Assembly (NCBI RefSeq): GCF_002931555.1
Contig: NZ_PSTZ01000005.1
Span: 124,001 to 188,000, forward strand
Direction: 5' to 3'
DNA: 64,000 bases
From: Pseudoclavibacter sp. RFBB5
GTDB lineage: Bacteria; Actinomycetota; Actinomycetes; Actinomycetales; Microbacteriaceae
Both the position numbers and the translations under genes were made by a program. Every line of letters begins with the position of its first letter. Position 1 is the first letter of the stretch. This document shows positions 393 through 16,382 of this stretch, piece by piece. The notes under the pieces are model-generated. The model had not been told where the DNA came from and ran no database searches. It worked only from the letters and a program-made list of their open reading frames with translations.

Positions 393-394
393 GG

Positions 395-1180: not shown

Positions 1181-1420
1181 CGGCGCATCCTTTCTCAGAG
1201 GGTGGATGAATCTTCTTAGTGGTGAAGACTCGTCCTGTCTCGAGGCGGGGCCTAGCGAACGAAGGGGTTTTCTCAGCGAGTTAATCGTTCTGTAACCGTT
1301 GGTAACGCGAGCGGTCGCAATTGGGCGCCGCGCGTTTCAGGCAGATGTCCCGAAAAGCGGCGAGATTTCTCAGCACACGATAGGTCTCAGACAGATGCTG
1401 GAGCGGGTCGCGGGGTGGAA
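1181..1420 (-). promoter_or_regulatory. Non-coding leader and probable promoter of the NitT-type operon
   Basis: This stretch of 240 bases separates the MerR gene from the ATPase gene and holds no credible reading frame. On the minus strand the octamer CTGAGAAA occurs three times (complement at 1191-1198, 1268-1275 and 1366-1373), plus one CTGAGA at 1384-1389. The CTGAGA word recalls a TPP riboswitch core, but I could not find the other conserved helices, so I do not call a riboswitch. No convincing -35/-10 pair was found. Confidence 0.35.
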
Positions 1421-2176: not shown

Positions 2177-3417
2177 CGCACACCACCCGCGTTCACGCTG
2201 ACTGCCTGGGGTTCCAGTGTACGAAGCGGGCGGGCCGCGAGGCCGTAGGCAAACGCGCATCCCCACGCCCCGAGCAGCACAAGCGCGGCGATGTTGACGC
2301 TCGCGTATTCGGTGAGCACGGCGGCGAGCATGATGCCGACCGACGGGGCCGCCGTGGTGAGCGCGTTCTGGGTGCCCATGATGCGGCCGCGCAGCTGCTC
2401 TGGGATGCGCTCGATCATGAGCACGCCCATGAGGCTGCCGAAGAGGCCGCTTGCGAGACCCATGATGAAGGCGCCCGCGAACACGACCCACACGGAGGTG
2501 AGGAGGCTGATGAGTCCGATGCCGATGGTCGTGCCGATCATGCCGACCACGAACCAGGCGCGACGCGGGCCGCGGGTGCCGGCGATCGCGTAGGTGCCGC
2601 CGCCGACGAGCATGCCAAGTGCGAGCGCGCTGAGCACGAACCCGAGGAGCCCCGGCTGTTCGACCTGCGTGAAGTAGACGGGCAGCACGAGTCCCTGGAG
2701 TCCGGCGAGCACGAACACCGACACGAGGCTGAGCGCCGTGGTGGCGACGAGGAAGGGGCTGCGGAACAGGGCCCGCCAGCCGTCGCGCAGCTGCGACCAT
2801 CCGCTGCCGATCGGGGTGGATGCACGCGAACCGTCGTCGGCGACGATCTCGCCGACCGCCTTCGGGATGAGGAGCGTGATGAGGGCGGCGAGGAGAGAGG
2901 TGGCGGCCGTGATCCAGAGCACGGTGGAGCCGTCGAAGAGCACCATGAGGGTTCCGGCGGCGGCGGGGCCGATGAAGATGGCGACGGCGCTGAGACTCTC
3001 GCGCACGCCCATGAGGCGTTCGGCGCTGATGTCGCCGTGGCGCACGATGGCGGGGAGCAGGGCTTCGCGGGCGGTCATGCCTGGCACGTCGCCGAGGGAC
3101 CCGATGATGCCGAAGAGCACGAACCAGCCGAGGTCGAGACCGGAGACGAGGTCGATGATCGGCAGCGCCGCGATCGAGGCGGCCGAGATGAGGTCGGTGA
3201 CGACGGATGAGGTGCGCCGGTTGATGCGGTCGATGACGACCCCCATGAAGAGGCCGGCGAGCACGGCCGGGATGGCGGTGCCCGCCGCGACCGTGCCGGC
3301 GCCGAGAGCGCTGCCCGTCGTCGACAGCACGATGAGCGGGAGGGCGATGCCGGCGATCGAATTGCCGAGGAGGGACAGGACGTGCGAGGTGAGGTAGGTG
3401 ACCGGGAGGAGGTTCAT
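2173..3417 (-). CDS. MFS transporter, DHA3 (macrolide-efflux-like) type
   Basis: A 414-residue inner-membrane protein with about 12 hydrophobic segments and the N-terminal layout of the MefA/DHA3 group: first helix with LLGNSIAGIALPL, loop 2-3 motif GVVIDRINRR (the MFS motif A region, DRxxRR). It is most likely a proton-driven efflux pump for a drug or toxic metabolite. It starts 15 bases after the TetR stop and overlaps the MerR regulator that follows, so two different regulators flank it. No strong Shine-Dalgarno sequence precedes ATG 3417; translation may be coupled to the upstream gene. The substrate is not predictable. Confidence 0.85.
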   Translation of the reverse strand: MNLLPVTYLTSHVLSLLGNSIAGIALPLIVLSTTGSALGAGTVAAGTAIPAVLAGLFMGVVIDRINRRTSSVVTDLISAASIAALPIIDLVSGLDLGWFVLFGIIGSLGDVPGMTAREALLPAIVRHGDISAERLMGVRESLSAVAIFIGPAAAGTLMVLFDGSTVLWITAATSLLAALITLLIPKAVGEIVADDGSRASTPIGSGWSQLRDGWRALFRSPFLVATTALSLVSVFVLAGLQGLVLPVYFTQVEQPGLLGFVLSALALGMLVGGGTYAIAGTRGPRRAWFVVGMIGTTIGIGLISLLTSVWVVFAGAFIMGLASGLFGSLMGVLMIERIPEQLRGRIMGTQNALTTAAPSVGIMLAAVLTEYASVNIAALVLLGAWGCAFAYGLAARPLRTLEPQAVSVNAGGVR

Positions 3418-3432
3418 GCGATCAAGCAGAAA

Positions 3433-4143
3433 CTATGACGTTGGGGCGGGGTCAAGTGGGGCTTCCTGCACCTCCATCCCGCGCCACGCCACCTCGAGTC
3501 CCGCCCGGCACCGGGCGCGCGCTGCCGGGTCGTCGAAGCGGTCGCCGCGAACGACGAGCTGGTAGTAGAAGATGCCGACGATGAGGTCGAAGCACGCCTC
3601 GACGTCGAGGTCAGCCCGCAGTGACCCCTCGGCAACCCCGGCGCGCAGCGCGTCTTCGATCGGTCGGCGCCGCACGGAGACGTGCGACTCCCAGTAGGCC
3701 TCCTGCAGGGCCCGGTCGCTCATGACGAGGCGGATGCGCTGCCGGAACCGCTGGTCCGGGTAGCTCGTCTCGTCGAGTTCGGCGGATGCCCCCATCAGGA
3801 ACTCGAAGACGCGTGCCCGCAGGTCGCCGGGCTTGGCGAGGGGCGCGGGCACCGTGCGCCCGACGTCGAGGGCGTCCGCGATGAGGGTCGTCATCGACGG
3901 CCACCGTCGGTAGAGGGCCGCTCGGCTCACGCCGCTGCGCTCGACGACCCTCGACACCGTCACGGCCTCGTCGGCGTCGATGATCGCGAGCGTCGCCGCG
4001 AGGATCTGCCCGTCGAGTTCCTCGGTGCGGGGTCGACCGGGGCCGCGCCGCGTCTCGGCGTCCTCGCCGGCTGCCGGGTGCGCCTCGGCGCCCGCATCCA
4101 GTTCCGCGGATGCGGGCACCTCGGCCGTTGCGAGGGACGTCAC
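3433..4143 (-). CDS. TetR-family transcriptional regulator
   Basis: A 236-residue protein. After a poorly conserved N-terminal tail of about 35 residues (RRGPGRPRTEELDGQIL marks the start of the domain) comes a TetR helix-turn-helix, with the recognition part SGVSRAALYRRWPS, and a longer helical ligand-binding domain. GTG at 4143 overlaps the phosphatase stop (TGA 4140-4142) by four bases. It is inside the phn-type operon, between the phosphatase and the MFS exporter, and probably represses this operon. The effector is unknown. The start could also be further inside because the N-terminal tail is low complexity. Confidence 0.87.
   Translation of the reverse strand: MTSLATAEVPASAELDAGAEAHPAAGEDAETRRGPGRPRTEELDGQILAATLAIIDADEAVTVSRVVERSGVSRAALYRRWPSMTTLIADALDVGRTVPAPLAKPGDLRARVFEFLMGASAELDETSYPDQRFRQRIRLVMSDRALQEAYWESHVSVRRRPIEDALRAGVAEGSLRADLDVEACFDLIVGIFYYQLVVRGDRFDDPAARARCRAGLEVAWRGMEVQEAPLDPAPTS
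3436..3455 (-). promoter_or_regulatory. Possible MerR-type operator/promoter before the MFS gene
   Basis: On the minus strand the sequence reads TTGACC, then CCGCCCCAACGTCA, forming an inverted TGAC-N11-GTCA (3436-3439 and 3451-3454) with a -35-like TTGACC at 3450-3455. Such arrangements are typical of promoters activated by drug-sensing MerR proteins, and a MerR gene follows downstream. The site overlaps the TetR stop codon. No good -10 was found, so this is only a candidate. Confidence 0.25.
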
Positions 4144-4913
4144 GCGAGGGCCTTCGCCCGGAGCTGCGTGACGGTCGCGTCGGTGAGCCCTGCCGCGCGG
4201 AGCGGTGCGAGCGGGTCGCCGTGGCGCTCGCGGAGGCGCCCAAGGAGGATGCGCATCGACACATCCATGGGTTCGGCCCCGTCGAGGAGGGACCCGTTGA
4301 GCTTGGACACCTCCTCGAGATCCATGCCGAACTTCGCGAGCAGCACGCTCATCGTCGGCCCGATGCGGGTGAGGATGGCGCCCATGTTGGCGTCGGTCTT
4401 CGCGTAGTCGCGCACGATGTCGTCGTCCGCTGCGCCGAGCGCGAGGAGGAGCATCGCGGCGAGCACGCCCGTGCGATCACGCCCGGCCGCGCAGTGGAAG
4501 GCGGTGGCGCCGGGGGAGACGGCGATGATGCCGAGCGCCGTCGCGAGCTGCGGCGCGGCCGTCTCGACCATGAGCGCGTACATCTCGCCCATGCCGGCGT
4601 GCGCGCTCCCGTGCTCGTCGGCGGCGGGGATTCCTCCGCCGACGCTGCCCATAAGAGGCAGGTGGTGGTAGGCGACGGCATGCGCGGCGAGCGGACCTCG
4701 GCCCGTGAGCGCGACCTCGTCGGCGGTGCGCAGGTCGATGACGGAGGCGAGCCCGCCTGCGGTCAGCTCGCGCGCATCCGCTTCGGTGATGACGGACAGG
4801 TCGTCGGCGCGGATCGCGAGCCCGTCGCGGAGGGTGCCCCCGGCGATGGGGGTGCCGCCGAGGTCGCGCAGGTTGACGGGCGCGGAGAGGGTGATGTCGA
4901 GTGTGGTGGTCAT
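4140..4913 (-). CDS. Tyrosine-phosphatase-like (HCX5R) phosphatase in phosphonate-importer operon
   Basis: A 257-residue cytoplasmic protein of the DSP/PTP-like family Y_phosphatase3. The N-terminus has VNLRDLGG and the middle VIDLRT with a downstream DE, both typical of this family; the catalytic P-loop is HCAAGRDRTG with Cys141 and Arg147. Family members hydrolyse phosphate monoesters on Tyr, phosphoinositides or small molecules. Its gene overlaps both neighbours by four bases, after phnE and before tetR. Because no C-P lyase or phosphonatase gene is visible, it may be the enzyme that releases phosphate from whatever the importer brings in; this is inference. RBS and start were chosen by the overlap with the phnE stop. 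Confidence 0.85.
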   Translation of the reverse strand: MTTTLDITLSAPVNLRDLGGTPIAGGTLRDGLAIRADDLSVITEADARELTAGGLASVIDLRTADEVALTGRGPLAAHAVAYHHLPLMGSVGGGIPAADEHGSAHAGMGEMYALMVETAAPQLATALGIIAVSPGATAFHCAAGRDRTGVLAAMLLLALGAADDDIVRDYAKTDANMGAILTRIGPTMSVLLAKFGMDLEEVSKLNGSLLDGAEPMDVSMRILLGRLRERHGDPLAPLRAAGLTDATVTQLRAKALA

Positions 4914-5752
4914 GTGAGTCGCTTTCGGATGAGGGCGCTGCCCTGGTCGATCAGCGTGACGAGCACGATGATGCAGATGATGATGGCGCTGAGGTGTCCG
5001 TAGTCGTACATCTTCATCGCCGTGGTGAGCTCCAGGCCGATGCCGCCGGCCCCGACGAGGCCGAGGATCGTGGCGCCGCGCACGTTGCCCTCGAAGAGCA
5101 GCAGCGTGTAGGAGACGAGCAGCGGGGCAGCCTGCGGGAGCACCCCGTACTGGATGAGCTGCCGGCGTGATGCGCCGACGGCTTGCATGGCCGACATGGG
5201 GCCGCGGTCGACGGACTCCATAGCCTCGGCGTAGACCTTGCCGATGGAGCCGATCGAGCCGAGCGTCATGGCGAGGATCCCGGCGAACGGCCCGAGTCCG
5301 ACCGCGGAGACGAACATGAGCGCGAAGACGAGGTCGGGCACCGAGCGGATGATGTTCATCACCCAGCGGGCCGGGTAGTACATCCACTTCGGGGCGATGT
5401 TCGACGATGCGGCGAACGCCATGAACAGCGACAGCACGGCCCCGAGGACGGTGCCGACGATGGCCATCTGCAGCGTCTCGATGAGGAGCGAGAAGATGGT
5501 GCCGAACTTCGAGAAGTCGGGCGGGAACAGGCGCGAGAGGAACTCGCCCATGTTGATGGCCCCGTCGCCGAGCTTCGCGACGTTGAACTCGGCGCCCGCG
5601 AACGACCACAGCAGCACGATGACGGCGACCGGGATGCCGAGCATGAAGCGCGCTCGCGGGATCGAGAAGGCGCGTTCGAGGCGGTCGCGCTCGGCGGTCG
5701 TGAGGGTGGGGGTTGTGGATGCGCGGGGCGGCTTAGGCGCGGTGGTCGTCAT
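4910..5752 (-). CDS. phnE: Phosphonate/phosphite-type ABC transporter permease
   Basis: A 280-residue permease with about six membrane segments. The first is IPVAVIVLLWSFAGAEF. The region LVFALMFVSAVGLGPFAGILA followed by KVYAEAMESVDRGPMSAMQAVGA contains the EAA-like loop (AEAMES...G) that docks on the ATPase. Strings such as VRGATILGLVGAGGIG near the C-terminus are hallmarks of PhnE. I place the start at ATG 5752, 20 bases inside the end of the ATPase gene; an upstream in-frame start would need a much longer overlap. Neighbours phnC and phnD complete a PhnCDE importer. It acts in the cytoplasmic membrane. Confidence 0.9.
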   Translation of the reverse strand: MTTTAPKPPRASTTPTLTTAERDRLERAFSIPRARFMLGIPVAVIVLLWSFAGAEFNVAKLGDGAINMGEFLSRLFPPDFSKFGTIFSLLIETLQMAIVGTVLGAVLSLFMAFAASSNIAPKWMYYPARWVMNIIRSVPDLVFALMFVSAVGLGPFAGILAMTLGSIGSIGKVYAEAMESVDRGPMSAMQAVGASRRQLIQYGVLPQAAPLLVSYTLLLFEGNVRGATILGLVGAGGIGLELTTAMKMYDYGHLSAIIICIIVLVTLIDQGSALIRKRLT

Positions 5753-6584
5753 CGTGGGCCTCCTCGTCGTCGTAGAGCACGGAGAGCTTCTCAGCGTCGA
5801 GCGCACCGGTTGGCGCGGAGACGAGCATCTCGCCGTGGCGGAGGCCGATGATGCGGTCGGTGTGGCGCAGCGCGAGGGGCAGCACGTGGAGGCTGACGAG
5901 CACGGGGATGCCGTCTTGGGTGGCGATGTCGCGCAGCAGCTCGAGCACGGAGTCGGCGAGCTTCGGGTCGAGGGATGCGACGGGTTCGTCGGCGAGGATC
6001 ACTCGCGGCTGCTGCATGAGGGCGCGGGCGATGGCGACGCGCTGCTGCTGGCCGCCGCTCAGCGAACGGGCGGGGTCTTTCGCCTTGTGGGCGATGCCGA
6101 CGCGGTCGAGCAGCTCCATCGCGCGTTTGCGGTGCTCGCTGCTGAAGCCGCCGACGAGGTTGATGGGGCCCGCGCTGTGGAGGGTGCCGGTGAGCACGTT
6201 CGTGAGCACGCTGAGGCGGGGGATGAGGTTGAACTGCTGGAACACCTGCCCGACGCCTGCGCGCAGCTGCCGGAGCTCGCCCCGGCGGAGGTTGGTGACA
6301 TCGTGGCCGGCGACGCGGGCCGTCCCGCCCGTGATGGGCACGAAGCCGGTGAGGCTGCGCATGAGCGTCGACTTACCGGAGCCGGACGCGCCGAGGAGGG
6401 CGACCATCTCGCCGGGGTGCAGGTCGAGGTCGACGCCGTGGAGCACGGTCGTCTCGTCGTAGGCGACCCGCAGGCCGCGCACGGTGACGAGGGGGAGGCG
6501 GGTGAGGGCATCCATGTCGCTGGTCGTTGTGGTTGCTGGTGCGGGCGCGGTGTTAGCGCTGGGTGCTGGGGCGAGGTTCGTCAT
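5733..6584 (-). CDS. phnC: Phosphonate/phosphite-type ABC transporter ATP-binding protein
   Basis: A 283-residue ATPase. An N-terminal tail rich in Ala, Pro and Thr precedes the domain. Walker A GASGSGKS is at 65-72, signature LSGGQQQR at about 175-182, Walker B VILADEP at 195-201 with SLDP after it, and an H-loop SLHVLP. The string VGQVFQQFNLIPRLSVLTNV is typical of PhnC. It starts at ATG 6584, overlapping the phnD stop by four bases. It energises import through PhnE of the ligand captured by PhnD. Confidence 0.92.
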   Translation of the reverse strand: MTNLAPAPSANTAPAPATTTTSDMDALTRLPLVTVRGLRVAYDETTVLHGVDLDLHPGEMVALLGASGSGKSTLMRSLTGFVPITGGTARVAGHDVTNLRRGELRQLRAGVGQVFQQFNLIPRLSVLTNVLTGTLHSAGPINLVGGFSSEHRKRAMELLDRVGIAHKAKDPARSLSGGQQQRVAIARALMQQPRVILADEPVASLDPKLADSVLELLRDIATQDGIPVLVSLHVLPLALRHTDRIIGLRHGEMLVSAPTGALDAEKLSVLYDDEEAHDDDHRA

Positions 6585-7474
6585 TCGAGGTCCTCGAGCT
6601 GGACGCCCGCGACGCCGGCGATCTCGACGAAGCCGTCGAAGACGGAGGGCTCGGGGTCGACGGAGACGGGGAGGCCGATGAAGCCGGATCCGAGGGCGCC
6701 GAGGGCCTCGGCGTTCTCCTCGACGAACACGGCCTGGATCGCGTCCTGGATGACGGTGCGCTTCTCGTCGCTGAGCTCGGGGCTGCCGAGGACGCTGCCC
6801 ATGACCGGAATGGGTGCGCTCTCGCCGACGCCGCGCCACTCGCCGTCGGCGAAGGGGAACATGGGTGCGCCAAGCTCGGTGAGCATGATGGAGGTGCAGG
6901 CGGCGTCGACCTGGCCCTGTTCGAGGGCCGCGAAGGAGCCCTCGTGTCCGCCGGCGAAGATCGCCTCGTAGTCGGTGCCCTGCTCGAGGCCGGCCTCGTG
7001 GAGCATGTGGACGGGCATGAAGTACCCGGAGCTGGAGGCCTGGTCGGCGAAGGCGACGGTCTTGCCTTCGAGGTCGGTGAGCTCCTGCACGGGGGAGTCA
7101 TTCAAGACGACGCAGGTGGAGACGGGGTCTTCGCTGCCTTCCCAGGCGAGGAGCGCATCCACCTCGCCGGTGTTGACGGCGAGGGCGGAGGGGAAGCCGC
7201 TCATGATGCCCATGTCGACGTGGTCGGCGCGGATGGCTTCGACGACGCTGAGGTAGTCGGGAACGTCGGTGACCTCGACGGTGTAGCCGGTCTCGGCTTC
7301 GAGGAGCTCGACGAGGGCGTCGATGGGGTTGGCCTGGGTGGGGTCTTCGCCGAGGGGGATGGTGGCGATCGTGATCGTGGTGTCGTCGGCGGTGGCTTCG
7401 GCGGTCTGGCAGCCGGTGAGGGCGAGGGCGCTGACGCCCATGATGCCGAAGGCGAGGAGCGGTGAACGGCGCAT
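6581..7474 (-). CDS. phnD: Phosphonate/phosphite-type ABC transporter substrate-binding lipoprotein
   Basis: A 297-residue lipoprotein: positively charged start MRRSP, hydrophobic helix and lipobox ALTGC around residue 22. The mature part has PhnD-family strings: GYTVEVTDVPDYLSVVEAI, ALLAWEG, and GKTVAFADQASSSGYFMPV. PhnD-like proteins bind phosphonates, phosphite or phosphate esters outside the membrane. The start at 7474 is supported by GAAGGACC just upstream; a start further upstream would put charged residues ahead of the signal peptide. It is the first gene of the operon phnD-phnC-phnE-phosphatase-tetR-MFS-merR. The ligand is not known, and a phosphate ester is possible given the phosphatase partner. 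Confidence 0.9.
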   Translation of the reverse strand: MRRSPLLAFGIMGVSALALTGCQTAEATADDTTITIATIPLGEDPTQANPIDALVELLEAETGYTVEVTDVPDYLSVVEAIRADHVDMGIMSGFPSALAVNTGEVDALLAWEGSEDPVSTCVVLNDSPVQELTDLEGKTVAFADQASSSGYFMPVHMLHEAGLEQGTDYEAIFAGGHEGSFAALEQGQVDAACTSIMLTELGAPMFPFADGEWRGVGESAPIPVMGSVLGSPELSDEKRTVIQDAIQAVFVEENAEALGALGSGFIGLPVSVDPEPSVFDGFVEIAGVAGVQLEDLE

Positions 7475-7796
7475 GTTCGGGGTCCTTCCGAGGGATGCTC
7501 CCGGGATTTCGAGAACACCGGTATGCAAACTCGCGAAGGTGACCGGCAATTACGAGACCGGTGGACTGGAAATTGGCGCGGAGGTGAACAGTTGGGGCGG
7601 GGTTCGCGCGATGCTAGCCCTGAAGCTGAGGATCCGGGTGCGCTCGTTGTGTACAGGGATTGAGACGATCGAGCAGGCAGGTCATTCTGTCCGACGTTTC
7701 GTCTGCGCTGACGGATCTACGCGCATCGACAGTCCTGGCTGCTGTCACGGGCGATGGATCGATCGCCGTTGACGAAGTCTGCACTATCGATTGTCC
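7475..7796. promoter_or_regulatory. Non-coding spacer: phn operon promoter region and border of the low-GC cassette
   Basis: These 322 bases lie between the phnD start and the methyltransferase stop and hold no credible gene. Close to phnD the word ACCGG(T/C) recurs three times within about 45 bases (near 7517, 7542 and 7556), which could be operator half sites for the operon's TetR protein. The half nearer 7700-7796 is downstream of the methyltransferase gene; I found no clear hairpin terminator in it. The base composition shifts here from the high-GC operon to the lower-GC cassette. Confidence 0.4.
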
Positions 7797-8930
7797 CTAT
7801 TGCGAGCCGTAAATCACTCTCGTCTCTGCCGCGCACAAACATGGGGTGGGAGCTACTCCCGAGCGTGAGATTCTTGGCTGCCATCCGAGCTTCTGGAGGC
7901 ACTCGGTTAAAGCGCGAAGTGTTAGGTATTGGGCGCCCGTACCGCGTAGAGCGTCGAGGAATAAGCTCTCGTGCTCGACGATATCCTCGAAGAGGTCCGT
8001 TAAGTTTGGACGGTGTGTCGGTCGGATGGCGATCACGCAATCACTCAGGACAACCGGCCCGATCTCAAGGGTCCGTGGTGAGCGCCAGGAGCCCACGCGT
8101 GAAATCAGCACAAAAGGTGTCGTGTCACTCAGGACTAGATCACTGGACTGAGGGTGTTGGGCGGCTCCAATCGCGCTGGTGTGGATGAAAGGTACCGGGT
8201 CTTTAATCACCGATGTTCGCGCCTTATGTACCGGAACTCGACCTCGAACGATATCGACACAGCGACACGACCCGTTGTTCTTGCTCTGGAGGACCGCAGG
8301 CTCGTTTCGAATCGTCCGGCCAGACTTGAGGTGGATGATAGAAGTTGAGACCCGTGCCCCTGCGAACAGGCTCGTCCTGAGTTTCGCCAAAACACGCACC
8401 TCAAAAGACTTTTCGATCTCTGCCCATAGCTTCTCGTGTCGCTCCGCGCGCAGTGCGCCATCCGGTAGAATTGCATAGAAGCCGTGTCTGGGGTTGAGGT
8501 TCGATATAAGTTCGGTTAAGAAGTGTACGGCCGGAGCCACGTGCCCCGCGAAGTCCCCGAATTCTACCCAAGCTCCACCGCCTCCCCTGTGCGAGAACGG
8601 CGGGTTCATGACCACAACGTCGAGATCGGCGCGAGCGAGCCGCCAGGCTTTACTAGCCAGCCTAGATTCTGATTTCAGGCAGTCCGCCTGACTCAGGCAC
8701 CAATCGGGTCGTTCGCGCCGCAGGTTTCGCACAGTTTTTCCGTTGACGTCAATGCCGAGCAAGGTGACGGATTCTTCGTACCTGGAATGCACTGCACGTA
8801 ACAGGGCTCCATCGCCCACTGTTGGGTCCATTACAGCTCCAGTGACGCCTGCAGGTAAGTGGCTAACTAATTCGCGAGCAACTGCTTCAGGAGTGTAATA
8901 CGCATCGAGAATGCGTGGGTCAACCTTCAC
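7797..8930 (-). CDS. N6-adenine DNA methyltransferase of the putative defence cassette
   Basis: A 377-residue class I methyltransferase of the gamma-like type. Motif X is YYTPEAVA (residues 11-18), the SAM-binding motif I is VMDPTVGDGALL (33-44), an acidic turn follows in LLGIDVNG, and the catalytic motif IV is NPPF (109-112). The C-terminal half (about 220-377) is variable, as expected of a target recognition region. It should methylate adenine in a specific DNA sequence. GTG 8930 overlaps the stop of the preceding gene by four bases (GTGA), and it is the last gene of the four-gene unit. No endonuclease domain is visible in it. Composition is near 50-55% G+C, unlike the flanking operons, which points to transfer. 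Confidence 0.9.
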   Translation of the reverse strand: MKVDPRILDAYYTPEAVARELVSHLPAGVTGAVMDPTVGDGALLRAVHSRYEESVTLLGIDVNGKTVRNLRRERPDWCLSQADCLKSESRLASKAWRLARADLDVVVMNPPFSHRGGGGAWVEFGDFAGHVAPAVHFLTELISNLNPRHGFYAILPDGALRAERHEKLWAEIEKSFEVRVLAKLRTSLFAGARVSTSIIHLKSGRTIRNEPAVLQSKNNGSCRCVDIVRGRVPVHKARTSVIKDPVPFIHTSAIGAAQHPQSSDLVLSDTTPFVLISRVGSWRSPRTLEIGPVVLSDCVIAIRPTHRPNLTDLFEDIVEHESLFLDALRGTGAQYLTLRALTECLQKLGWQPRISRSGVAPTPCLCAAETRVIYGSQ

Positions 8931-9874
8931 GTGTTGCGTCGATTCAGAATGAACTCGCTCACTTGATATACGTACAGAGCGCGGTGTCCAGTGGACCGCC
9001 CCGGGCTTCGACGCGGGTGATCGTAGATCAGCTCCGTATTACCAGGGTGGCAAATGGCGTAAATTACAGCGCCAAGGGCGTGTGGTTTCGTGCCAATGGG
9101 GGCTATTCGCAGGTATGCATCATCGATGCGCTTATGAATTGCATGGAGAGCATCGAACGCGGAGAATGGGCACGAGGCAGTCGCGAACTCCATGCGATCT
9201 TCCATGCGATCCATCTCAAGGGTTGCGCGGTTGGCGACAAGAGCCAGTGCTGGGTACTCGATGCGGAACCCCGGGGCACCAAGAATGGGATACGTGCCCG
9301 TAGACTCGACCTCTTCTTGATCGAAAATATGGCTGAGTCGCGCACCCTCAAAGCCCAAGAGCGGCGCGAAATTCCCGCTCTCTTCCGGCCTACGGCTTAA
9401 CTTAGCAAACCCGGGCAGGGGTTCAATGCCGTGATGTGTACTCAAGTCGTATATAGATCCGAGAGAATGTTCAGCCCTTGTGTAGTCGTCCGGCTCTGCG
9501 TAAACAGCAACGAAGTGCTTATTTTGTGCAATCAGCGTCTTAACGAGCGGCGCCCAGACGCGATGCTCAAGGCTTGTTAAATCGATCGCGACACATTCGG
9601 TCAAGCTGGCCGTGAAGCCCGATATCCCTGCGTGGTCGTAGAGGGAGAAAACTTCGTGTGCGTCTAATTTCTCAGAAAATGGAGTGCAGAAAGAATCTGT
9701 ATCAACGCTTAGGCCGATTCTGAGGGTGCCTGCGGTCTCAGTCAGGGCGTCCGTGATTACATTTGCACGCTCTTCGTCGCTGCTGATTCCGTGGATGAAC
9801 GTACCAAGGTTCAGGGATTCTATTTCACTAATTTCGATACGACGAGTGTGTATCGATGAACCAAGATCAATCAT
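8927..9874 (-). CDS. Unknown 315-residue protein of the putative defence cassette
   Basis: I do not recognise this protein. It is soluble, without signal peptide or membrane segment. An N-terminal alpha/beta-looking part (IRIGLSVDTDSF, then FTASLTECVAIDLTSLEHRV) is followed by a middle with GFEGARL and PILGAPGFRIEYPALALV, and by a C-terminal block that looks most conserved in style: IAPIGTKPHALGAVIYA, NTELIYDHP and YVYQVSEFI. The last block recalls sensor-type alpha/beta domains that sit beside effector genes, but that is only impression. The gene overlaps the ATPase stop (ATGA at 9871-9874) and the methyltransferase start, so it is translated with both. Function: probably a dedicated partner of the ATPase. 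Confidence 0.8.
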   Translation of the reverse strand: MIDLGSSIHTRRIEISEIESLNLGTFIHGISSDEERANVITDALTETAGTLRIGLSVDTDSFCTPFSEKLDAHEVFSLYDHAGISGFTASLTECVAIDLTSLEHRVWAPLVKTLIAQNKHFVAVYAEPDDYTRAEHSLGSIYDLSTHHGIEPLPGFAKLSRRPEESGNFAPLLGFEGARLSHIFDQEEVESTGTYPILGAPGFRIEYPALALVANRATLEMDRMEDRMEFATASCPFSAFDALHAIHKRIDDAYLRIAPIGTKPHALGAVIYAICHPGNTELIYDHPRRSPGRSTGHRALYVYQVSEFILNRRNT

Positions 9875-11772
9875 TCGGACTGCCCAAAGTCGAGGGACAG
9901 TTGGTTGCTGCGGTCCGCGTCTTCCGGTGTGTGGCTTCGTTCTCTCGCAGGTTCGCTGCTACTGCTGCCTGAAACTTTTTGCACCAGTTTATCGCTTGGT
10001 TCTCGGCTCGCGAAATGTAACAAGTATGCCGCCGGCAACATCAGTCGCCGCTTACTCCGTGGGCTGTAGGTGAAGTATGCAGAAAGAACTGGGTGTAACT
10101 GGTAATCGAGTTGTCTTGTGGCGCCCGAATTTCTGGCGTTCTTATCGCCGTCGAATGAAATCAGGACTCCTTGCCCCTCGGCTTCAGAAAGCAGCTTTCC
10201 AACACTCTCTGTGGATTCATCCTCGACGCCCGTGTACTTTACTCGGAACTGTGACACCTCAGGTGTTGCGAGGGGTTTTTCTCGCGCTATCTCACGAAAA
10301 ACCGCCCCCAGGCTCTGCGTCAATCGCACCAGTTCGGCTCCACGTTTGGACCAGCCCTGGAGGTCTTTAATCGTGGATTCCCCTATCCGTTGAGCGGCAC
10401 GAGTTTGCATTTCTGGCGCAACGGATTCGGATAAGCTGCGGCCGGATTCAATGTGGAGCCTCAGGCACTCATGAACAAGGCGGACTAGGTATCGGATATT
10501 CCCGCTGGCCATTAAACAGTAGGTACTCCAGCCTGTGTAGTACTTTCTTATTCCTACACGTTTTTCTTTAATTGCATAGAGTGTTGCAGTGCCGTAGTTA
10601 TTCACGCGGTTCCGCCACTTTGTGCTGTCTTCCATGGCAAACTTCAGCACGTCGAGCGGAGTCTCTCGGTGGTGATCCGACCAGCGGACGACGAGGGCTT
10701 GTTCAAGAGGCGTTAATCTTGCGGCCTTTTCGATTTGCTCAGCATTGGCGCCTTCGAGTTCGAGGCGTGAACTTAGTTCTTCGAGTAGAATATCGGCCCC
10801 GAGGAGCAGTGCTTCTTCGTTCTTCTCGAGTGACGGCAGGAGCTCGGCCGGGGGCAGATGAGCCCCTGTTAAGCCTAGAAGACCCACGATGACTTTCTCC
10901 GCAAAAATCTCAAAAGCTACGCCTTCGAGGTCGGCCGCAATCTCCACTGTAGTGAAGTCTGAAGGGTCCTGGATCGGCTGCCCCTCGAGTTGCGTTTCCC
11001 GGTCTATAGATACCGTGTTCCGGACACCGATTTTGAAGGTGTACGTCGCAACGCCAACCTGTTTTATTAACGTATTAAGAATTCGCTGCTGCATGGCCGA
11101 CAGGTTTTCATATTCGTCCAAGCAAAACATGAAGGGACGCTCACGTGAATTGCCAAGGTTGCCGAGGGCCTGGAATAGATAGTTTAATGGTAGTCCGGCC
11201 ACGGACCAGCGGTGGTCCGTGAGGTGACGGATGCCGCCGTTAATCAAGGATTCGATCTCAACCAGCGCGAAGTCCAAGCTTTTGGATACATCTGAGAGGC
11301 CGCTCCGGTGTGGCAAGTTCATCGAGCGCTGGAATAGATCAAAGTGATGCTGAGAAACTGGTACTTCGCGCCCGTGAGTCATCAGATGCTCCGCGAATCT
11401 AACCACTTCTGAGCTAAGTTTCAGATTCAGATAGTGCTCAAAGACGCTCGTCCAAGTGCTATCCGAAACTCCTTTGCCGGAAAAGACAGAAACTAGGCTC
11501 GGTTCAAACTTCCAGTATACGCCTACTACATCCCAGTCTTCGGGCTCTCGGCTGTCGTGGATACGACGTTGGCCCGCATGTGACATGGAACGGAGCGTAG
11601 TTGTCTTGCCTGTTCCACGCCCGCCAACGAGAAACGACGGCGTAATTCCCAATAGTCGCTTGAAGTAGTTTGGCTGCGTGAAACGGTTATAGAGAGAGTC
11701 ATCGCCTTCATATTCAGCGCGAACCTGCCCGAAAATGGTGTTGATTCGGTCGGTTGTGACGAGCTCGTCCAT
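9871..11772 (-). CDS. ORC/CDC6-like P-loop ATPase of the putative defence cassette
   Basis: A 633-residue ATPase. Residues 1-50 carry a helical entry (YNRFTQPNYFKRLLG), Walker A GGRGTGKTT is at 50-58, Walker B FMFCLDEYENL at 214-224 (Asp219, Glu220), and a sensor-like strand FKIGVRNT follows near 246-253. The long insert between the Walker motifs and the helical and winged-helix-like region after it (about 430-580) resemble ORC/CDC6 or STAND-type AAA+ proteins. The polar tail SSSSEPARERSHTPEDAD and the end LSLDFGQSE look disordered. It starts one base after the PRTase-like gene, with GAGGGG as RBS, and overlaps the next gene by four bases. From memory, such ATPases beside PRTase-like proteins are listed as predicted conflict systems; I could not check this. 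Low G+C (30 of 60 in a nearby counted line). Confidence 0.85.
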   Translation of the reverse strand: MDELVTTDRINTIFGQVRAEYEGDDSLYNRFTQPNYFKRLLGITPSFLVGGRGTGKTTTLRSMSHAGQRRIHDSREPEDWDVVGVYWKFEPSLVSVFSGKGVSDSTWTSVFEHYLNLKLSSEVVRFAEHLMTHGREVPVSQHHFDLFQRSMNLPHRSGLSDVSKSLDFALVEIESLINGGIRHLTDHRWSVAGLPLNYLFQALGNLGNSRERPFMFCLDEYENLSAMQQRILNTLIKQVGVATYTFKIGVRNTVSIDRETQLEGQPIQDPSDFTTVEIAADLEGVAFEIFAEKVIVGLLGLTGAHLPPAELLPSLEKNEEALLLGADILLEELSSRLELEGANAEQIEKAARLTPLEQALVVRWSDHHRETPLDVLKFAMEDSTKWRNRVNNYGTATLYAIKEKRVGIRKYYTGWSTYCLMASGNIRYLVRLVHECLRLHIESGRSLSESVAPEMQTRAAQRIGESTIKDLQGWSKRGAELVRLTQSLGAVFREIAREKPLATPEVSQFRVKYTGVEDESTESVGKLLSEAEGQGVLISFDGDKNARNSGATRQLDYQLHPVLSAYFTYSPRSKRRLMLPAAYLLHFASREPSDKLVQKVSGSSSSEPARERSHTPEDADRSNQLSLDFGQSE

Positions 11773-11773
11773 G

Positions 11774-12649
11774 CTACATCCCCTCGGGGCTGATCAATGG
11801 GGTCCAAGTCGCGGTCGGTGTGCCCCACCGCATGATTGGGACAGTGTTGTCGGGGCAGCCGTGCTCGAACGAGAGGTTGAGGGCGACTTCGCCATGACCA
11901 AAGGGGCCGTGAGTGTCAAGTTCGGTCAGGGCAGCGTATTTCGCTAGAAAGTTGGAAAGATACGGTCGGTGCCTGCTCGGCACTAGCCTTGTATTCGGGC
12001 TCAAGGCTGAGTAGGTGTCATCGAGTTCGTATGTGGGCAACACTTTCACCTTGCACTTGTTCTCGATATTCCTGAGGCCATTTGACGTTGCGACCACGGG
12101 CAGGTAAAAGACGTCTTTCAGCATGCCTTTGTCTTTCATGTTCGCCGCAGACAAGCGCCCGTGTTGATTGTCTTGGTGTCGTTCCCAGGAGTTGATGAAT
12201 TGTTCGCCCGAGCCTGCTAAGTCGTCGAAGTAAATCAAATTTCTGGCCCGATCTCCACAATGACGATGAAGTCCGGAATTGCTTACGGTGTTCTCCTCGG
12301 GCAATCCGATGGTCTTCGCAAGTCTTGCAAAGATTGTTCCAGATCCAGTTATGTCTCCGTGGCGACCCTCAGGAATTGTGACAAGTGCTGTAGTGATGTA
12401 CTCGTCCCAGTCGAGTAGGCTGTCTCTCTGCAAGAGAAATGCGCGCAACCGAGCGAGGTTTGATATAACTGAGCGGCGCACGTGCAGGCCGTCCAGGTGA
12501 ACGTGCGACTCGAGTAGAGCCATGGCAATTTCTTGATCCCTGCCCGGCTCGAAGTTATCGATCCACTTGTCGAGACTCAGTCGACGTTGCGGAGGCCAGG
12601 CGCGTATGACCGAGAGGAAGGTCCTATCCTCTGCTAAGGGGTGACTCAC
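11774..12649 (-). CDS. Phosphoribosyltransferase-like protein (PRTase-CE type) of the putative defence cassette
   Basis: A 291-residue soluble protein and the first gene of the four-gene unit. The key motif is RNLIYFDDLAGSGEQFINSW (about 140-160), which has the shape of the PRPP-binding loop of phosphoribosyltransferases: a hydrophobic strand, two Asp, then a Gly/Ser/Gln phosphate loop. Regions around VTIPEGRHGDITGSGTIFARL and FYLPVVATSNGLRNIE would supply the other Rossmann-type strands. I infer that it binds PRPP or a nucleotide and either makes or senses a signal; whether it keeps catalytic activity is unknown. GTG 12649 has a weak AGGG upstream. Its stop (TAG 11774-11776) is one base from the ATPase start. 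Confidence 0.8.
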   Translation of the reverse strand: MSHPLAEDRTFLSVIRAWPPQRRLSLDKWIDNFEPGRDQEIAMALLESHVHLDGLHVRRSVISNLARLRAFLLQRDSLLDWDEYITTALVTIPEGRHGDITGSGTIFARLAKTIGLPEENTVSNSGLHRHCGDRARNLIYFDDLAGSGEQFINSWERHQDNQHGRLSAANMKDKGMLKDVFYLPVVATSNGLRNIENKCKVKVLPTYELDDTYSALSPNTRLVPSRHRPYLSNFLAKYAALTELDTHGPFGHGEVALNLSFEHGCPDNTVPIMRWGTPTATWTPLISPEGM

Positions 12650-12888
12650 TCGGCCCTGCTCTCGACGTGGTTAGGTTTCTGGGACGGAGCAATGAGCCCA
12701 CGGCTCTGCCGCTCTGGTCACGAAGTTGTGCCAGCAACGGCGCTTCGTTTCTAGACACCCTAGGGCAGAAACTACCGGGTCGTGGGGCACAACCGCGCTC
12801 ACCGTACAACTGTGATTCTCCGCATCAAATCGGCAGTCCGAGTGGGCCATGCAGGCCTTGCCACAATCGAGCGCTTTGAACTCTCGAG
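12650..12888. other. Non-coding upstream region of the putative defence cassette
   Basis: These 239 bases lie between the first cassette gene and the decayed permease copy. No reading frame looks real on either strand. The minus strand must carry the cassette promoter, but I found no good -35/-10 pair. The region has intermediate composition and marks the right border of the low-GC block. Confidence 0.4.
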
Positions 12889-13335
12889 CCCACTACAGTT
12901 CTCAGGTACCGCGCGAGTCTCGCCACCCCCTTCTTCGGCTCGCCCGAGAAGACGGCATCCCTCTGCCGCAGACACGCGCCCGCAAGCTCGGCGTGCCCCG
13001 TAATCGTGTTCATCGCGATAGCGGCCGCTGCGCCCACCTCCGTGGTCGCCGCGGACTTTCCATTCATCTTCGGCGTCCCTGGCGCCGTCGGGGCACCGCT
13101 CATGGTGCTTGTCGCCACCGCGATCCTGCTGCTCTTCTCGGTCGGCTACGCGTGGATGACCCCGCGAGAACGAGACTTTGGCGCCTTCTTGCTCGCACGT
13201 CGACCGCCGGCTTGGGCGCTGCCTGGGGCTGGTAACGCATCCATTGCGCTGCTCTTCTCCGTGCTGCTCACCGTGTCGATGACCTGCTACCTCTGTGTGC
13301 TCGTCTCCGGGCGCGAGCTCAAGACGCTTGTGGCA
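12889..13335 (+). pseudogene. Decayed, internally deleted copy of the APC amino-acid permease gene
   Basis: This stretch is an imperfect direct repeat of 14943-15560, the leader and 5' part of the intact permease. Shared words include CTCGCCCGAGAAGA, CGCAAGCTCGGCGTGCCC and GTGTCGATGACCTGCTACCT. The start codon position has become CTG (near 12963). One frame from about 13006 still reads IAAAAPTSVVAADFPFIFGV and GAPLMVLVATAILLLFSVGY like the intact protein (GAPLMVLVATAILLLFSVGY). About 70 residues are then missing: SMTCYLCV jumps to LVSGRELKTL, which matches ASGRELTTL far downstream in the intact gene. The rest is lost. It is a dead partial duplicate; the Fic gene lies between the two copies. 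Confidence 0.85.
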
Positions 13336-13512
13336 CACGGTCGCGACTTTGGCGCCAACCGTGGTGTCGATCACGGTTGGGTGCCTGCACCACCTCTGCG
13401 GTCAAGCGCCGTTGAGTCGCGAAACGCGGGGCGGACGCGGGTGCCCTGCCGACCATTGACCTGCGGCCGCCCGGACCTTCCCGAACGTAACCTTGAACAC
13501 AGTGTCGTGAGC

Positions 13513-13539
13513 TTTAACTTTAAATACTCTAAAGTTAAA
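13513..13539. promoter_or_regulatory. Perfect AT-rich palindrome before the Fic gene (operator candidate)
   Basis: TTTAACTTTA (13513-13522), spacer AATACTC, and TAAAGTTAAA (13530-13539) form a perfect 10-base inverted repeat in otherwise GC-rich DNA, ending 37 bases before the Fic start codon. Its position fits an operator overlapping the promoter. A similar long palindrome stands before the broken Fic gene at 61137-61170. The Fic protein has a C-terminal winged helix, so self-regulation is plausible. Confidence 0.65.
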
Positions 13540-13576
13540 AAACTACACGTGCGCCAAAGCGAGGAGAGGGGCCCCG

Positions 13577-14848
13577 ATGGTCTACATCGACCGCATCTGG
13601 GAGCCTCAGGACACCTTCGGCGTGAGCCGGAAGGACCGCGCGGGCGGCAAGTACCGCGCATTCGTCCCCGACGAGCTCAACCCCGATCTCGCTCCACTCT
13701 CCGCAGCAGCTGAACGCGCCGCGGAGGGCGCGCTCCAGGCGCTCACTCGCGCAGACGAGCGCGTAGGAACAAAGGGTCAATTCCTCAACCACCTGCTCAT
13801 TCGATCCGAGAGCATCTCCTCGTCCTGGATCGAAGGAAACCGCGTCACGCCCAAGCGTCTGGCGATCGCCGAGCTCTTGCGCCAAGGCAAGCCCGTCGCG
13901 CTCGACGTGGTCGCCAACGTGCGCGCCACGGAGGACGCGATCGCCGCCCTCGCCGACCACACGCGACCCATCCAGGTCGCCGACATCGAGGCGCTCCAGC
14001 ACACGATCGAACCGGGCCTCACGCTCGGCATCCGCACCGAGCAGAACTGGGTAGGCGGCCCGGGCTACTCACCTCTGCGCGCCGACTTCGTCCCGCCGCC
14101 CGAAAGTGAAGTGGGTCGCCTCATCGGCAACCTGGCCGAATTCGTGACCGCCACCGAAGGGAATCCCGTCGTGCGCGCCGCCATCGCGCACGCGCAGTTC
14201 GAGACGATTCACCCGTTCGTTGACGGCAACGGGCGCACCGGTCGTGCCCTCATCCACACCGTCCTCAAGCGTGCAGATGCCCTCCGCAACATCCTCATCC
14301 CCATCAGCACGGTCTTCGCAGGCGCAAAGAACGCGTACATCGACGGGCTCACCGAGTATCGATCAGGACGCGTCGACGAATGGGTCATCGCCTTCTCTGA
14401 AGCCGCGGAGCTTGCCGCCGCCAACGCAGTTCGTCTCGCGGACGACGTGCAACGACTCGACGCCGAGACCCTCGAGCAGCTCATCGAATGGCGCACGCAG
14501 CGGCGGCTATCGCCCGCGCGGCCCAGACGCGACGCTGTCGCGCTGCGCATCCTCGGTCGGCTGGCAATCGAACCTGTCCTCACTGCCGATTCTGTTGCCA
14601 CCGCCCACGGCGTCTCCAACGTCGCCGCCCATAAGGCGCTGACGCGGCTCGGCGAGGCCGGGGTGCTCTCCCGCAACACGGACCACAAGGGGCGCGTCGT
14701 CTGCTGGAGCGCAGACCGACACCTGGCACTCGTCGCGCTCACCGAACGCAGCAACCGGGTCGGCGGCGCCGACACCGCCGGACGGACTCCACCTCGCGGG
14801 CCGGACGCCCCGGATCGCAGTGTCCTCGGGAACCTCAGAGGCGACTAA
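13577..14848 (+). CDS. Fic-family protein adenylyltransferase with N-terminal inhibitory helix
   Basis: A 423-residue Fic enzyme that transfers AMP from ATP to protein hydroxyl groups. The active-site loop HPFVDGNGRTGR is at 212-223 with catalytic His212. The inhibitory motif S-x-x-x-E-G (SSWIEGN, Glu86) lies N-terminal to the Fic core, so it is a class II, self-restrained enzyme. The segment GPGYSPLRADFVPPPESEV is the usual ATP-side loop before the core. Residues from about 325 on look like a winged helix (DSVATAHGVSNVAAHKALTR), as in many actinobacterial Fic proteins. ATG 13577 is preceded by GAGGAGAGG. No separate antitoxin gene is next to it; the palindrome upstream suggests autoregulation. 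The target protein is unknown. Confidence 0.93.
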   Translation: MVYIDRIWEPQDTFGVSRKDRAGGKYRAFVPDELNPDLAPLSAAAERAAEGALQALTRADERVGTKGQFLNHLLIRSESISSSWIEGNRVTPKRLAIAELLRQGKPVALDVVANVRATEDAIAALADHTRPIQVADIEALQHTIEPGLTLGIRTEQNWVGGPGYSPLRADFVPPPESEVGRLIGNLAEFVTATEGNPVVRAAIAHAQFETIHPFVDGNGRTGRALIHTVLKRADALRNILIPISTVFAGAKNAYIDGLTEYRSGRVDEWVIAFSEAAELAAANAVRLADDVQRLDAETLEQLIEWRTQRRLSPARPRRDAVALRILGRLAIEPVLTADSVATAHGVSNVAAHKALTRLGEAGVLSRNTDHKGRVVCWSADRHLALVALTERSNRVGGADTAGRTPPRGPDAPDRSVLGNLRGD

Positions 14849-15014
14849 CGCGTCCTTTCTTTACTGCATCCGTGCGTCACGGTGTCGGAAGAGAACGAAC
14901 TCCAGCCCGGCTGCTCGGCTCCGGGCATCCGGGGGCCCGCCACCCCACTAAAGTTCAGGGGTACCCGCGCGAGCCCACCCCCTTCTCCGGCTCGCCCGAG
15001 AAGAGGACACCCCC

Positions 15015-16382
15015 TTGACGCAGACACTCACCCGCAAGCTCGGCGTGCCCGGAATCGTGTTCATGGTGATCGCGGCGGCCGCGCCCATCACCGTGGTCGC
15101 CGCGAACTTCCCGATCATCTTCGGCGTCTCCGGCTCCGTCGGGGCGCCGCTCATGGTGCTCGTCGCCACCGCGATCCTGCTGCTCTTCTCCGTCGGCTAC
15201 GCGTGGATGACCCCGCACGTGCCCGACGCTGGCGCCTTCTACTCCTACGTGGACCGCGGTCTCGGGCGGCGCCTCGGGCTGGGCACCGCATCCATCGCTC
15301 TGCTCTCCTACGTGCTGCTCACCGTGTCGATGACCTGCTACCTGGGCGTGCAGGCCGGCAACCTCTTCGAGCTGTGGACTGGGATGCAGGTGCCCTGGTG
15401 GCTCATCTCCGCCCTCATGATCGCGATCGTTGGGTTCCTCGGCTACCGCAACATCGACCTCTCCGCGAAGGTGCTCGGCGTCGTCCTCGTGCTCGAGGTC
15501 GTCGCGGTCATCGTCATCGACGTGGGCGTCCTCGCGTCCGGGCGCGAGCTCACGACGCTGCCGTTCAGCGTCAGCGAGGCCGTCTCCGGCACGCCCGGCC
15601 TCGGCCTGCTGTTCGCGTTCCTCGGCTTCTTCGGCTTCGAGGCGACGGCCGTCTTCCGCAACGAGGCTCGTGACCCGGAGCGCACCGTGCCCCGCGCCAC
15701 CTACATCGCCGTCATTGCGGTCGGCGCCCTCTACTTCGTGTCGTCGTGGCTCGTCATCGCCGGCCTCGGTGCCGACGACGCGGTCGCCCTCTCGAACGAG
15801 GACCCAGCAGGTGTCGTCGTCGGACTCGCAGGCGACGTGGTCGCACCGATCATGGCCGACATCGTGCAGGTGCTCGTCGTGACGAGCATGTTCGCGTGCA
15901 TGCTCGCGTTCCACAACATCGTCACCCGCTACCTGTTCACGCTGGGGGAGCGGGACGTGCTGCCGCGCACCCTCGCCGCCGTGCACCCGAAGCACTCTGC
16001 GCCGTCGCGCGCGTCCCTGTGGGTCACCATCATCACCGCAGTCGTGGTCGTCGTCTCCGCGCTCGCGCAGCTCGACCCGGTGCTGCAGATCTACACCTGG
16101 TACTCCGGAGCTGGCGCGGTGGGCGTCATCGTCATGATGACCCTCGCGAGCTTCGCCGTCGTCGCCTTCCGCGCTCGCCTGAAGCGGGATGCTGCCGAAG
16201 GGACGGCCTCGTCGTGGGTCACGGTCGCGTCGCTGGCCGGCGGCATCGGACTTGTCCTCGTGCTGGTGATCGCGATCTGGAACTTCCCCTTCCTCGTCGG
16301 CGGAGTGGTTGCGGCGATCATCTGGGGTGTCGTGCTGGCCGGGTTCTTCGCGGTCGGCACGCTGCTGCCGGGCAAGCGCTGA
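15015..16382 (+). CDS. APC-superfamily amino-acid/polyamine permease
   Basis: A 455-residue membrane protein with about 12 hydrophobic segments. The N-terminus has the APC pattern of helix 1 (VPGIVFMVIAAAAPITVVAA), and helix 6 FAFLGFFGFEATAVFRNEARDPERTVPRA contains the FEA...E...P..T.PR signature in pieces. It should import an amino acid or related amine by proton symport. It starts with TTG 15015, preceded by AGAGGA. The leader and first third are duplicated, in decayed form, at 12889-13335. It ends 31 bases from a convergent lipoprotein gene. The substrate cannot be predicted. Confidence 0.9.
   Translation: MTQTLTRKLGVPGIVFMVIAAAAPITVVAANFPIIFGVSGSVGAPLMVLVATAILLLFSVGYAWMTPHVPDAGAFYSYVDRGLGRRLGLGTASIALLSYVLLTVSMTCYLGVQAGNLFELWTGMQVPWWLISALMIAIVGFLGYRNIDLSAKVLGVVLVLEVVAVIVIDVGVLASGRELTTLPFSVSEAVSGTPGLGLLFAFLGFFGFEATAVFRNEARDPERTVPRATYIAVIAVGALYFVSSWLVIAGLGADDAVALSNEDPAGVVVGLAGDVVAPIMADIVQVLVVTSMFACMLAFHNIVTRYLFTLGERDVLPRTLAAVHPKHSAPSRASLWVTIITAVVVVVSALAQLDPVLQIYTWYSGAGAVGVIVMMTLASFAVVAFRARLKRDAAEGTASSWVTVASLAGGIGLVLVLVIAIWNFPFLVGGVVAAIIWGVVLAGFFAVGTLLPGKR

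Follow-up and report, generated by a model that had tools for sequence, protein, structure and literature searches.

A conserved four-gene cassette pairing PRTase-CE and ORC-CDC6-like proteins with a tandem-CARF protein and a DNA methyltransferase: a candidate mobile defence system

Related systems

The closest described relatives of the locus reported here are defence systems that employ a phosphoribosyltransferase (PRTase). The locus is a four-gene cassette on the minus strand of a 64,000-nt stretch of Pseudoclavibacter sp. RFBB5 (contig NZ_PSTZ01000005.1, positions 124,001 to 188,000; hereafter the window), and it encodes a PRTase, an ORC-CDC6-like ATPase, a tandem-CARF protein and an N6-adenine DNA methyltransferase. 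In retrons of type III-A, as outlined in PMC12548924, the PRTase effector works with a reverse transcriptase, a non-coding RNA and a winged helix-turn-helix protein. The DprA-PRTase pair of P2-like phage hotspots protects against T7 and lambda, and the account of this pair states its mode of action as unknown (Rousset et al. 2022, PMC9122126). As is proposed for the cassette, that account casts the PRTase as an effector activated by a DNA-sensing partner; the partner there is DprA and not the set of ATPase, CARF protein and methyltransferase, and the likeness is one of description. The BrxC and BrxD proteins of bacteriophage exclusion (BREX) systems have been placed in the ORC-CDC6 ATPase class (PMC12839542). 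A legend to a figure of validated DefensePredictor systems (PMC13092281) likewise uses the abbreviation PRTase, perhaps for a related protein.

The cassette and the type III-A retrons share a PRTase family: in PADLOC the window protein matches the retron III-A PRTase (1e-17), and a match to PRTase_III-A was obtained for 57 of 57 members from cassettes. The partners differ, being an ATPase, a CARF protein and a methyltransferase in the cassette. The locus was rejected as a retron, with no match to the reverse transcriptase family PF00078 in the window genome (control matches in 3 of 14) and no Rfam match in the window. The PRTase-CE/ORC-CDC6 pair and the CARF6 family are already catalogued, and the two window proteins are clear members of Pfam PF24390 (PRTase-CE) and PF24389 (ORC-CDC6-like). 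A preliminary description of the DNA, made without database searches, had named this pair as a predicted conflict system, which fits the Pfam family names. The CARF6 family, reportedly from work by Makarova et al. in 2020, is shown in PADLOC as a protein alone, and its constant PRTase-ATPase-methyltransferase context is added by the present analysis. Also computed here are the gene set, folds, conserved active-site motifs, gene order, correlated divergence, a variable insertion site and a linkage to enzymes of thymidylate (dTMP) synthesis. No description of the four-gene set or of its link to dUTP enzymes was found in openly licensed literature among the matches listed. We tentatively read the cassette as a mobile, methylation-licensed anti-phage or anti-plasmid system in which the PRTase attacks the nucleotide pool and the CARF protein acts as a gate, and give this reading a probability of about 0.45.

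Organization of the cassette

The four genes run from 12649 to 7797 in the order PRTase, ATPase, 315-aa protein and methyltransferase, with intergenic gaps of +1, −4 and −4 bases. Open reading frames (ORFs), spacing and the length of the third protein agree in every case with the preliminary description, and the motifs that it had read, DDLAGSGEQ, GGRGTGKTT, FCLDEYEN, YYTPEAVA and NPPF, are each present in their respective proteins. Its assignments of the PRTase, the ORC/CDC6-like ATPase and the N6-adenine methyltransferase were likewise borne out by Pfam at E values beyond chance (3e-34, 3e-103 and 2e-8). The cassette has a G+C content of 54.3%, versus 68.9% in bases 1-7600 and 68.2% in bases 15165-64000. 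This contrast is real, since windows as long as the cassette, taken elsewhere in the 64 kb and clear of it, have between 64.6 and 71.2% G+C; the values of 50% and 75% given earlier derive from single lines of sequence and overstate it.

Conservation of the gene set

A search for the CARF family with two exact peptide patterns in 84,980 species genomes yielded 64 loci, a lower bound that is biased to close relatives. Judged by record title, these loci span about eleven phyla: Pseudomonadota (22), Bacteroidota (17), Planctomycetota (9), Actinomycetota (7), Myxococcota and Acidobacteriota (2 each), and Desulfobacterota, Nitrospirota, Ignavibacteriales, Verrucomicrobiota and Bacillota (1 each). 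Neighbouring genes were counted with profiles built from the window and nine plasmid, phage and genome loci, none of them among the 64. The ATPase gene adjoins the CARF gene in 64 of 64 (whole, or in part on the contig), and a PRTase gene precedes the two in 61, the other three loci starting at a contig edge; for the locus designated L065, the PRTase gene and the start of the ATPase gene were found at the beginning of another contig of the same genome. The methyltransferase gene adjoins the cassette in 59 of 64 loci (53 downstream, 3 upstream and 3 downstream on the opposite strand); of the remaining five, three carry it farther off, one meets a contig end and one (L052) has none found. The preliminary description had named a lack of conserved gene order as grounds for abandoning its proposal, and what is seen instead is the triple in all but the three contig-cut loci, in an order that recurs in distant phyla.

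The PRTase, ATPase and CARF genes are also recognisable in all eight plasmid- or phage-labelled records inspected, two of which are broken, with the ATPase (L035) or the CARF protein (L038) in two pieces. Seven of the loci inspected are plasmid loci, four of them typed conjugative. The phage label of L039 is doubtful because its contig also carries ordinary bacterial genes (efp, cstA). When viral contigs were scanned, a single relative, L107, was found. Given this constant linkage over the 64 loci and the plasmid and phage records, the CARF gene belongs to the system no less than the known pair does, and so, almost as regularly, does the methyltransferase gene.

Divergence among the proteins is correlated as well. 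Over 61 sequences, pairwise distances correlate at 0.91-0.92 among PRTase, ATPase and CARF protein and at 0.83-0.86 with the methyltransferase, against a maximum of 0.25 in 500 permutations, values that are not corrected for shared phylogeny. The set, also used for all residue counts below, comprises the window and 60 loci, namely 54 of the 64 plus L032, L033, L034, L037, L039 and L107. Left out were L052 (no methyltransferase), five cut loci (L059, L065, L090, L100, L101), L106, which is split with its PRTase in two frames, the near-duplicates L088 and L104, and L044, removed without need as a copy of L040. Catalytic residues are near invariant in this alignment.

Closer to the window, the CARF profile found 1 of 396 genomes of the phylum, the window's own, and PRTase-CE exceeded its cut-off in 3 of 396. 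The ORC-CDC6-like cut-off was passed in 10 of 394 genomes of the class, with a match over a long stretch in only four: the window's, two others with PRTase and CARF genes, and a fragment in genome G140. These prevalence figures are lower bounds, since the CARF profile missed a distant branch (L041 in genome G106). The PRTase and ATPase families occur also apart from the cassette, as one of the three PRTase-CE genes (L142:6745-7551) lacks any cassette partner within the 14 kb examined and the G140 ATPase fragment has no PRTase-CE gene upstream on its contig.

Some further records deserve mention. L038 is a Klebsiella pneumoniae resistance plasmid (OW969611.1). Among 5426 E. coli genomes, 4 carry the part made up of methyltransferase, PRTase and ATPase, in each case on a plasmid and in strains named C600 or J53. 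Downstream of the cassette on a Moraxella osloensis plasmid (L033, 13234-16518), a PfkB kinase, a 7-cyano-7-deazaguanine synthase and an anti-phage dGTPase are annotated.

The PRTase and the ATPase

The PRTase-CE protein (11774..12649, minus strand; 291 aa, GTG start) is the proposed catalytic effector or signal maker. Its Pfam score of 119.4 bits is well above the cut-off of 27. The loop DDLAGSGEQ (12200..12226, minus strand), which would bind 5-phosphoribosyl-1-pyrophosphate (PRPP), is conserved in the alignment: both aspartates and the glutamine are kept in 61 of 61 sequences, G145 in 58, and S or T at position 146 in 61. Uracil PRTase is the top match in fold comparison, which makes uracil a possible substrate.

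The ORC-CDC6-like ATPase (9871..11772, minus strand; 633 aa) matches PF24389 over residues 13-579, at 347 bits versus a cut-off of 27. Every counted residue of its nucleotide-binding motifs occurs in 61 of 61 sequences: G50, G53, G55, K56 and T57 of Walker A (GGRGTGKTT, 11599..11625, minus strand) and D219, E220 and E222 of Walker B (LDEYEN, 11104..11121, minus strand). Searching the sequences of solved structures with profiles of the CARF protein, the PRTase and the ATPase turned up no substantial relative.

A variant arrangement at L097 (8626-12242), L098 and L099 has a second, shorter ORC-CDC6-like ATPase after the CARF gene, followed by a 282-286-aa protein and then the methyltransferase. 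The second ATPase of L097 has a zinc-ribbon match, and the 282-286-aa protein there has no family match. This arrangement is perhaps a hybrid or a second system.

The tandem-CARF protein and its ligand

The third protein (8927..9874, minus strand; 315 aa), called unknown in the preliminary description, can now be assigned as a stand-alone tandem-CARF protein and proposed nucleotide-ligand sensor. It has no Pfam match; it does match PADLOC CARF6 at 2e-82, as four members from other branches match the same profile group. Fold comparison finds a Rossmann-like CARF fold, with the type III CRISPR effectors Csm6, Cam1 and Can1 as nearest folds. No fused effector domain was seen in the protein. Two motifs stand out in the alignment: GFEGAR (9338..9355, minus strand), which follows a strand of the C-terminal CARF half and has G174, E176 and R179 in 61 of 61 sequences, and GTKPH (9080..9094, minus strand), with G261 and P264 in 61 and the pocket-type lysine K263 in 60. 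CARF is the sensor fold of type III CRISPR effectors, and a nucleotide-like ligand is therefore probably part of the story.

The known enzymes that might supply such a ligand were sought in 34 genomes, the hosts of 33 of the 64 loci and the window genome, with PF22335 for Cas10 (cut-off 27 bits) and PF18144 for CD-NTase. A strong match to the Cas10 palm was found in one genome and matches of 27-37 bits in seven more; the latter are probably not real Cas10, because the same profile also matches an E. coli control. CD-NTase exceeded its cut-off in five. Depending on whether the Cas10 profile is read strictly or leniently, 28 or 22 of the 34 genomes lack both enzymes, and the window genome has no match to either. 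The idea that the CARF protein reads cyclic oligoadenylate made in trans by the cyclases of Cas10 or of cyclic-oligonucleotide-based signalling (CBASS), with the cassette as their auxiliary effector module, draws on the nearness of the CARF fold to Csm6, Cam1 and Can1 and on the Cas10-like or CD-NTase matches in 6-12 of the 34 genomes, by strictness. With no match to either cyclase in the window genome and at least 22 genomes with neither, we regard it as extremely unlikely; the window cassette does not look like part of a type III CRISPR or CBASS signalling module, and Cas10 or CD-NTase as the general source of the ligand was rejected on the same counts. The strict count indicates that the ligand is probably other than a known cyclic oligonucleotide. 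Probably it is a nucleotide that the cassette produces itself or that infection alters.

The same observations lend some weight to the main alternative, in which the PRTase is a signal maker that forms a nucleotide or nucleoside-phosphate on infection, this product is bound by the tandem CARF, and the CARF-ATPase complex executes the response, for example by blocking DNA replication. The cassette has a ligand sensor and no cyclase, no member of the core set other than the PRTase is a likely maker of nucleotides, and the pocket-type residues of the CARF protein are near invariant. Set against these points, the PRTases of retron III-A and of DprA-PRTase are described without a CARF partner, which favours a toxic effector; PRTase-CE exists without the other partners, as at L142; and no executor domain is visible except the ATPase. 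On balance this alternative is possible but unlikely. More doubtful still is a fuller version in which the cassette has its own nucleotide messenger: the PRTase would make the CARF ligand, either from PRPP and a pyrimidine or from the dUMP/dTMP pool, with no cyclase involved, methylation would decide when the ATPase sets off the reaction, and accessory dUTPase, dCTP deaminase-like or ThyX enzymes (see below) would set the precursor or dTMP level.

The methyltransferase

The N6-adenine DNA methyltransferase (7797..8930, minus strand; 377 aa, GTG start) matches Pfam N6_Mtase over residues 11-208, at 34.3 bits versus a cut-off of 20.4. The NPP of its catalytic motif is kept in 61 of 61 sequences, with F or Y as the next residue, and conserved blocks in the C-terminal half suggest that this half resembles a target recognition domain.

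More than one type of methyltransferase is found among the cassettes. The gene that precedes the PRTase at L041 has a weak Pfam match to methyltransferases of the N6_N4 type (5e-6, over 54 residues), and the record of L036 annotates a DNA methyltransferase upstream of the PRTase. The replacement at L041 suggests that methylation itself is needed. The divergent branch to which these loci belong (L041:6489-13259, L035, L036) is marked by the other methyltransferase type (L041) or by ThyX (L035, L036); the ATPase, ThyX and methyltransferase of L035 are each split over two frames.

A DNA methyltransferase beside an ORC-CDC6-class ATPase recalls BREX, and the cassette methyltransferase has a weak PADLOC match to PglX (6e-4). 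This likeness and the variety of methyltransferases speak for an exclusion mechanism of the BREX or restriction-modification kind, in which methylation protects self, the ATPase complex blocks or modifies unmethylated DNA, and the PRTase acts on DNA bases or serves as a scaffold. Pfam and PADLOC found no nuclease family, and thus no restriction endonuclease, in the four cassette proteins, which do not look like a restriction-modification system; nor did they find PglZ-, BrxB- or BrxL-like matches there, though no search dedicated to PglZ was made. CARF and PRTase proteins are, to our knowledge, not parts of BREX. The retention of the PRPP loop throughout the alignment argues for small-molecule chemistry, and we consider a mechanism of this kind distinctly unlikely.

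Linkage to enzymes of the dTMP pathway

Scanning 99 of 216 flanking ORFs, chosen by a longest-ORF rule, gave dUTPase_2 as the most frequent of the 25 Pfam families shown (5 occurrences), followed by families with 2 each, including Thy1 (ThyX) and DCD (dCTP deaminase-like); of the two proteins matching DCD, one proved to be a trimeric dUTPase. In total, a gene for a dUTPase, a dCTP deaminase-like protein or ThyX is linked to 13 of the 64 cassettes. All-alpha dUTPases are found at L065, L067, L068, L069, L072, L075 and L102, trimeric dUTPases at L045, L056, L058 (on the divergent strand) and L060, a dCTP deaminase-like protein at L074, and ThyX at L050 and L058. In nine of the 13 loci such a gene shares the strand of the cassette and lies no more than 60 bases from it; at L045, L060 and L075 the gene overlaps a cassette ORF as drawn, and the dUTPase gene of L065 lies 9 bases from the PRTase gene on the other contig. 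Outside the 64 loci, dUTPase_2 adjoins the cassette in L033 and L039, and L036 has ThyX, separated from the cassette by a methyltransferase, as does L035, where ThyX is in two pieces. The ThyX motif is present in 3 of 3.

The rest of the flanks of 75 loci gave no further match to the dUTPase, ThyX and dCTP deaminase-like profiles except a weak second DCD match (1e-4), at L074, one gene outward. These profiles were built from cassette neighbours and favour such copies, so that Pfam profiles are the fairer control. For dUTPase_2 and ThyX the control covered 40 genomes (39 of the 64 hosts and the window's), picked after most of the accessory genes had been seen. Eight genes scored above 90 bits for dUTPase_2, and six of them are cassette copies by contig coordinates; of the two others, one lies near a contig end. 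L102 has a weaker copy (50 bits), which likewise lies at the cassette. No ThyX besides that of the cassette was found in the genomes of L050 and L058; ThyX matches occur away from the cassette in six other genomes, plus one in a two-part frame. For PF00692 the control covered 13 of the 64 hosts and the window genome; a further match elsewhere in the genomes of L045, L056, L058 and L060 indicates that the cassette dUTPase is an extra copy there.

The three kinds of enzyme all lie on the line from dCTP through dUTP and dUMP to dTMP. Because all of them point toward dTMP, the system may threaten the thymidylate supply or draw on the dTMP pool. A phage dUTPase acting as a protein trigger, as in the Stl system of the staphylococcal pathogenicity islands (SaPI), was also considered. 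The presence of unrelated dUTPase folds, of ThyX and of a dCTP deaminase-like protein in one and the same role would be better explained by a metabolite in common than by a common protein contact. The linkage of the cassettes to dTMP-pathway genes is new in this analysis.

The insertion site

The cassette lies in a variable insertion (7603..14941; 58.0% G+C) together with a Fic gene. Its left boundary is sharp and its right boundary approximate. The left flank is present at 95-96% identity in four of nine other genomes of the genus, and in all four the identity ends at window position 7601-7603, immediately upstream of a gene assigned, by reading only, to a phosphonate-type transporter. In two of these genomes the match sets in again at window position 14942 or 15164; in the other two it does not do so within the 16 kb examined. 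Past the break, a scan of ten chosen ORFs found cargo with PADLOC or Pfam matches in all four: a Schlafen-type helicase with a PDC-S28 helicase, a UvrD helicase (a weaker PADLOC match, 4e-27, partly Gabija-like), PDC-M11 with a GmrSD-like or DUF262-type gene, and type I restriction-modification genes. As relatives hold other predicted defence genes at the same site, the site looks like a defence hotspot.

This setting bears on whether the cassette is a defence system at all. A nucleotide-metabolism and DNA-modification module serving the replication of mobile elements themselves would account for the plasmid loci, conjugative ones included, and for the linkage to dUTPase, ThyX and dCTP deaminase-like genes. 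The window cassette, in contrast, sits on a chromosomal contig, at a site that in relatives is taken up by other predicted defence genes, and its core effector family is common to defence systems. Such a module is very unlikely in our judgement, and a role in defence is well supported by context.

The Fic/DOC gene of the insertion (13577-14848, plus strand) lies on the strand opposite to the cassette and matches PADLOC SoFic at 2e-67. A Fic gene is also found 128 bases upstream of the cassette at L078. The insertion showed no conspicuous long terminal repeats. Segments 12889-13300 and 14942-15350 match the same place in the genus-mates (at 77-84% and 90-93% identity, respectively), so that the former is probably a partial copy of the latter, which suggests a duplication tied to the insertion.

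Proposed mode of action

Under the favoured reading as a methylation-licensed system that acts on the nucleotide pool, the methyltransferase would mark host DNA, as its conserved catalytic motifs and near-constant linkage suggest. The ORC-CDC6-like ATPase would assemble on, or monitor, incoming or replicating DNA that lacks the mark. Upon activation the PRTase, through its intact PRPP site, would act on the nucleotide pool, most likely by reducing the supply of pyrimidine or thymidylate, with stalled phage DNA synthesis or a dormant cell as the outcome. The tandem-CARF protein would bind a nucleotide ligand and gate the complex as a threshold or an off switch. In about one fifth of cassettes, the added dCTP deaminase-like protein, dUTPase or ThyX may tune or protect host thymidylate.

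Several observations weigh against this account. L041, which is divergent and lies outside the 61 sequences, has an arginine in place of the Walker A lysine. The ATPase fragment of G140 (L042), at the end of a 5.1-kb contig, has no PRTase-CE gene upstream; the 431-aa gene found there matches no cassette profile. L052 has no methyltransferase found beside its cassette, and in L097-L099 the methyltransferase lies about 2.6 kb away, behind the second ATPase. The methyltransferase profile matches other N6 methylases too, and the adjacency of this gene is therefore less specific than that of the other three. The fold comparison does not set uracil PRTase apart, as PRPP synthetases, orotate PRTases and purine PRTases all score within 1-2 Z units of it. 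Finally, dTMP-pathway genes were not found at 51 of the 64 loci nor beside the window cassette; they are thus accessory, and their link to the core mechanism may be incidental.

Both the favoured reading and the alternative of a signal-making PRTase predict that mutants in the PRPP loop, Walker A or the CARF pocket lose function, and they differ on whether the PRTase does harm on its own. The cassette places the effector family of the type III-A retrons in a constant context of four genes that includes a ligand sensor, joined in one fifth of the loci found by enzymes of the route from dCTP to dTMP. If the CARF protein binds a product of the PRTase, the cassette would represent second-messenger immunity without a cyclase.

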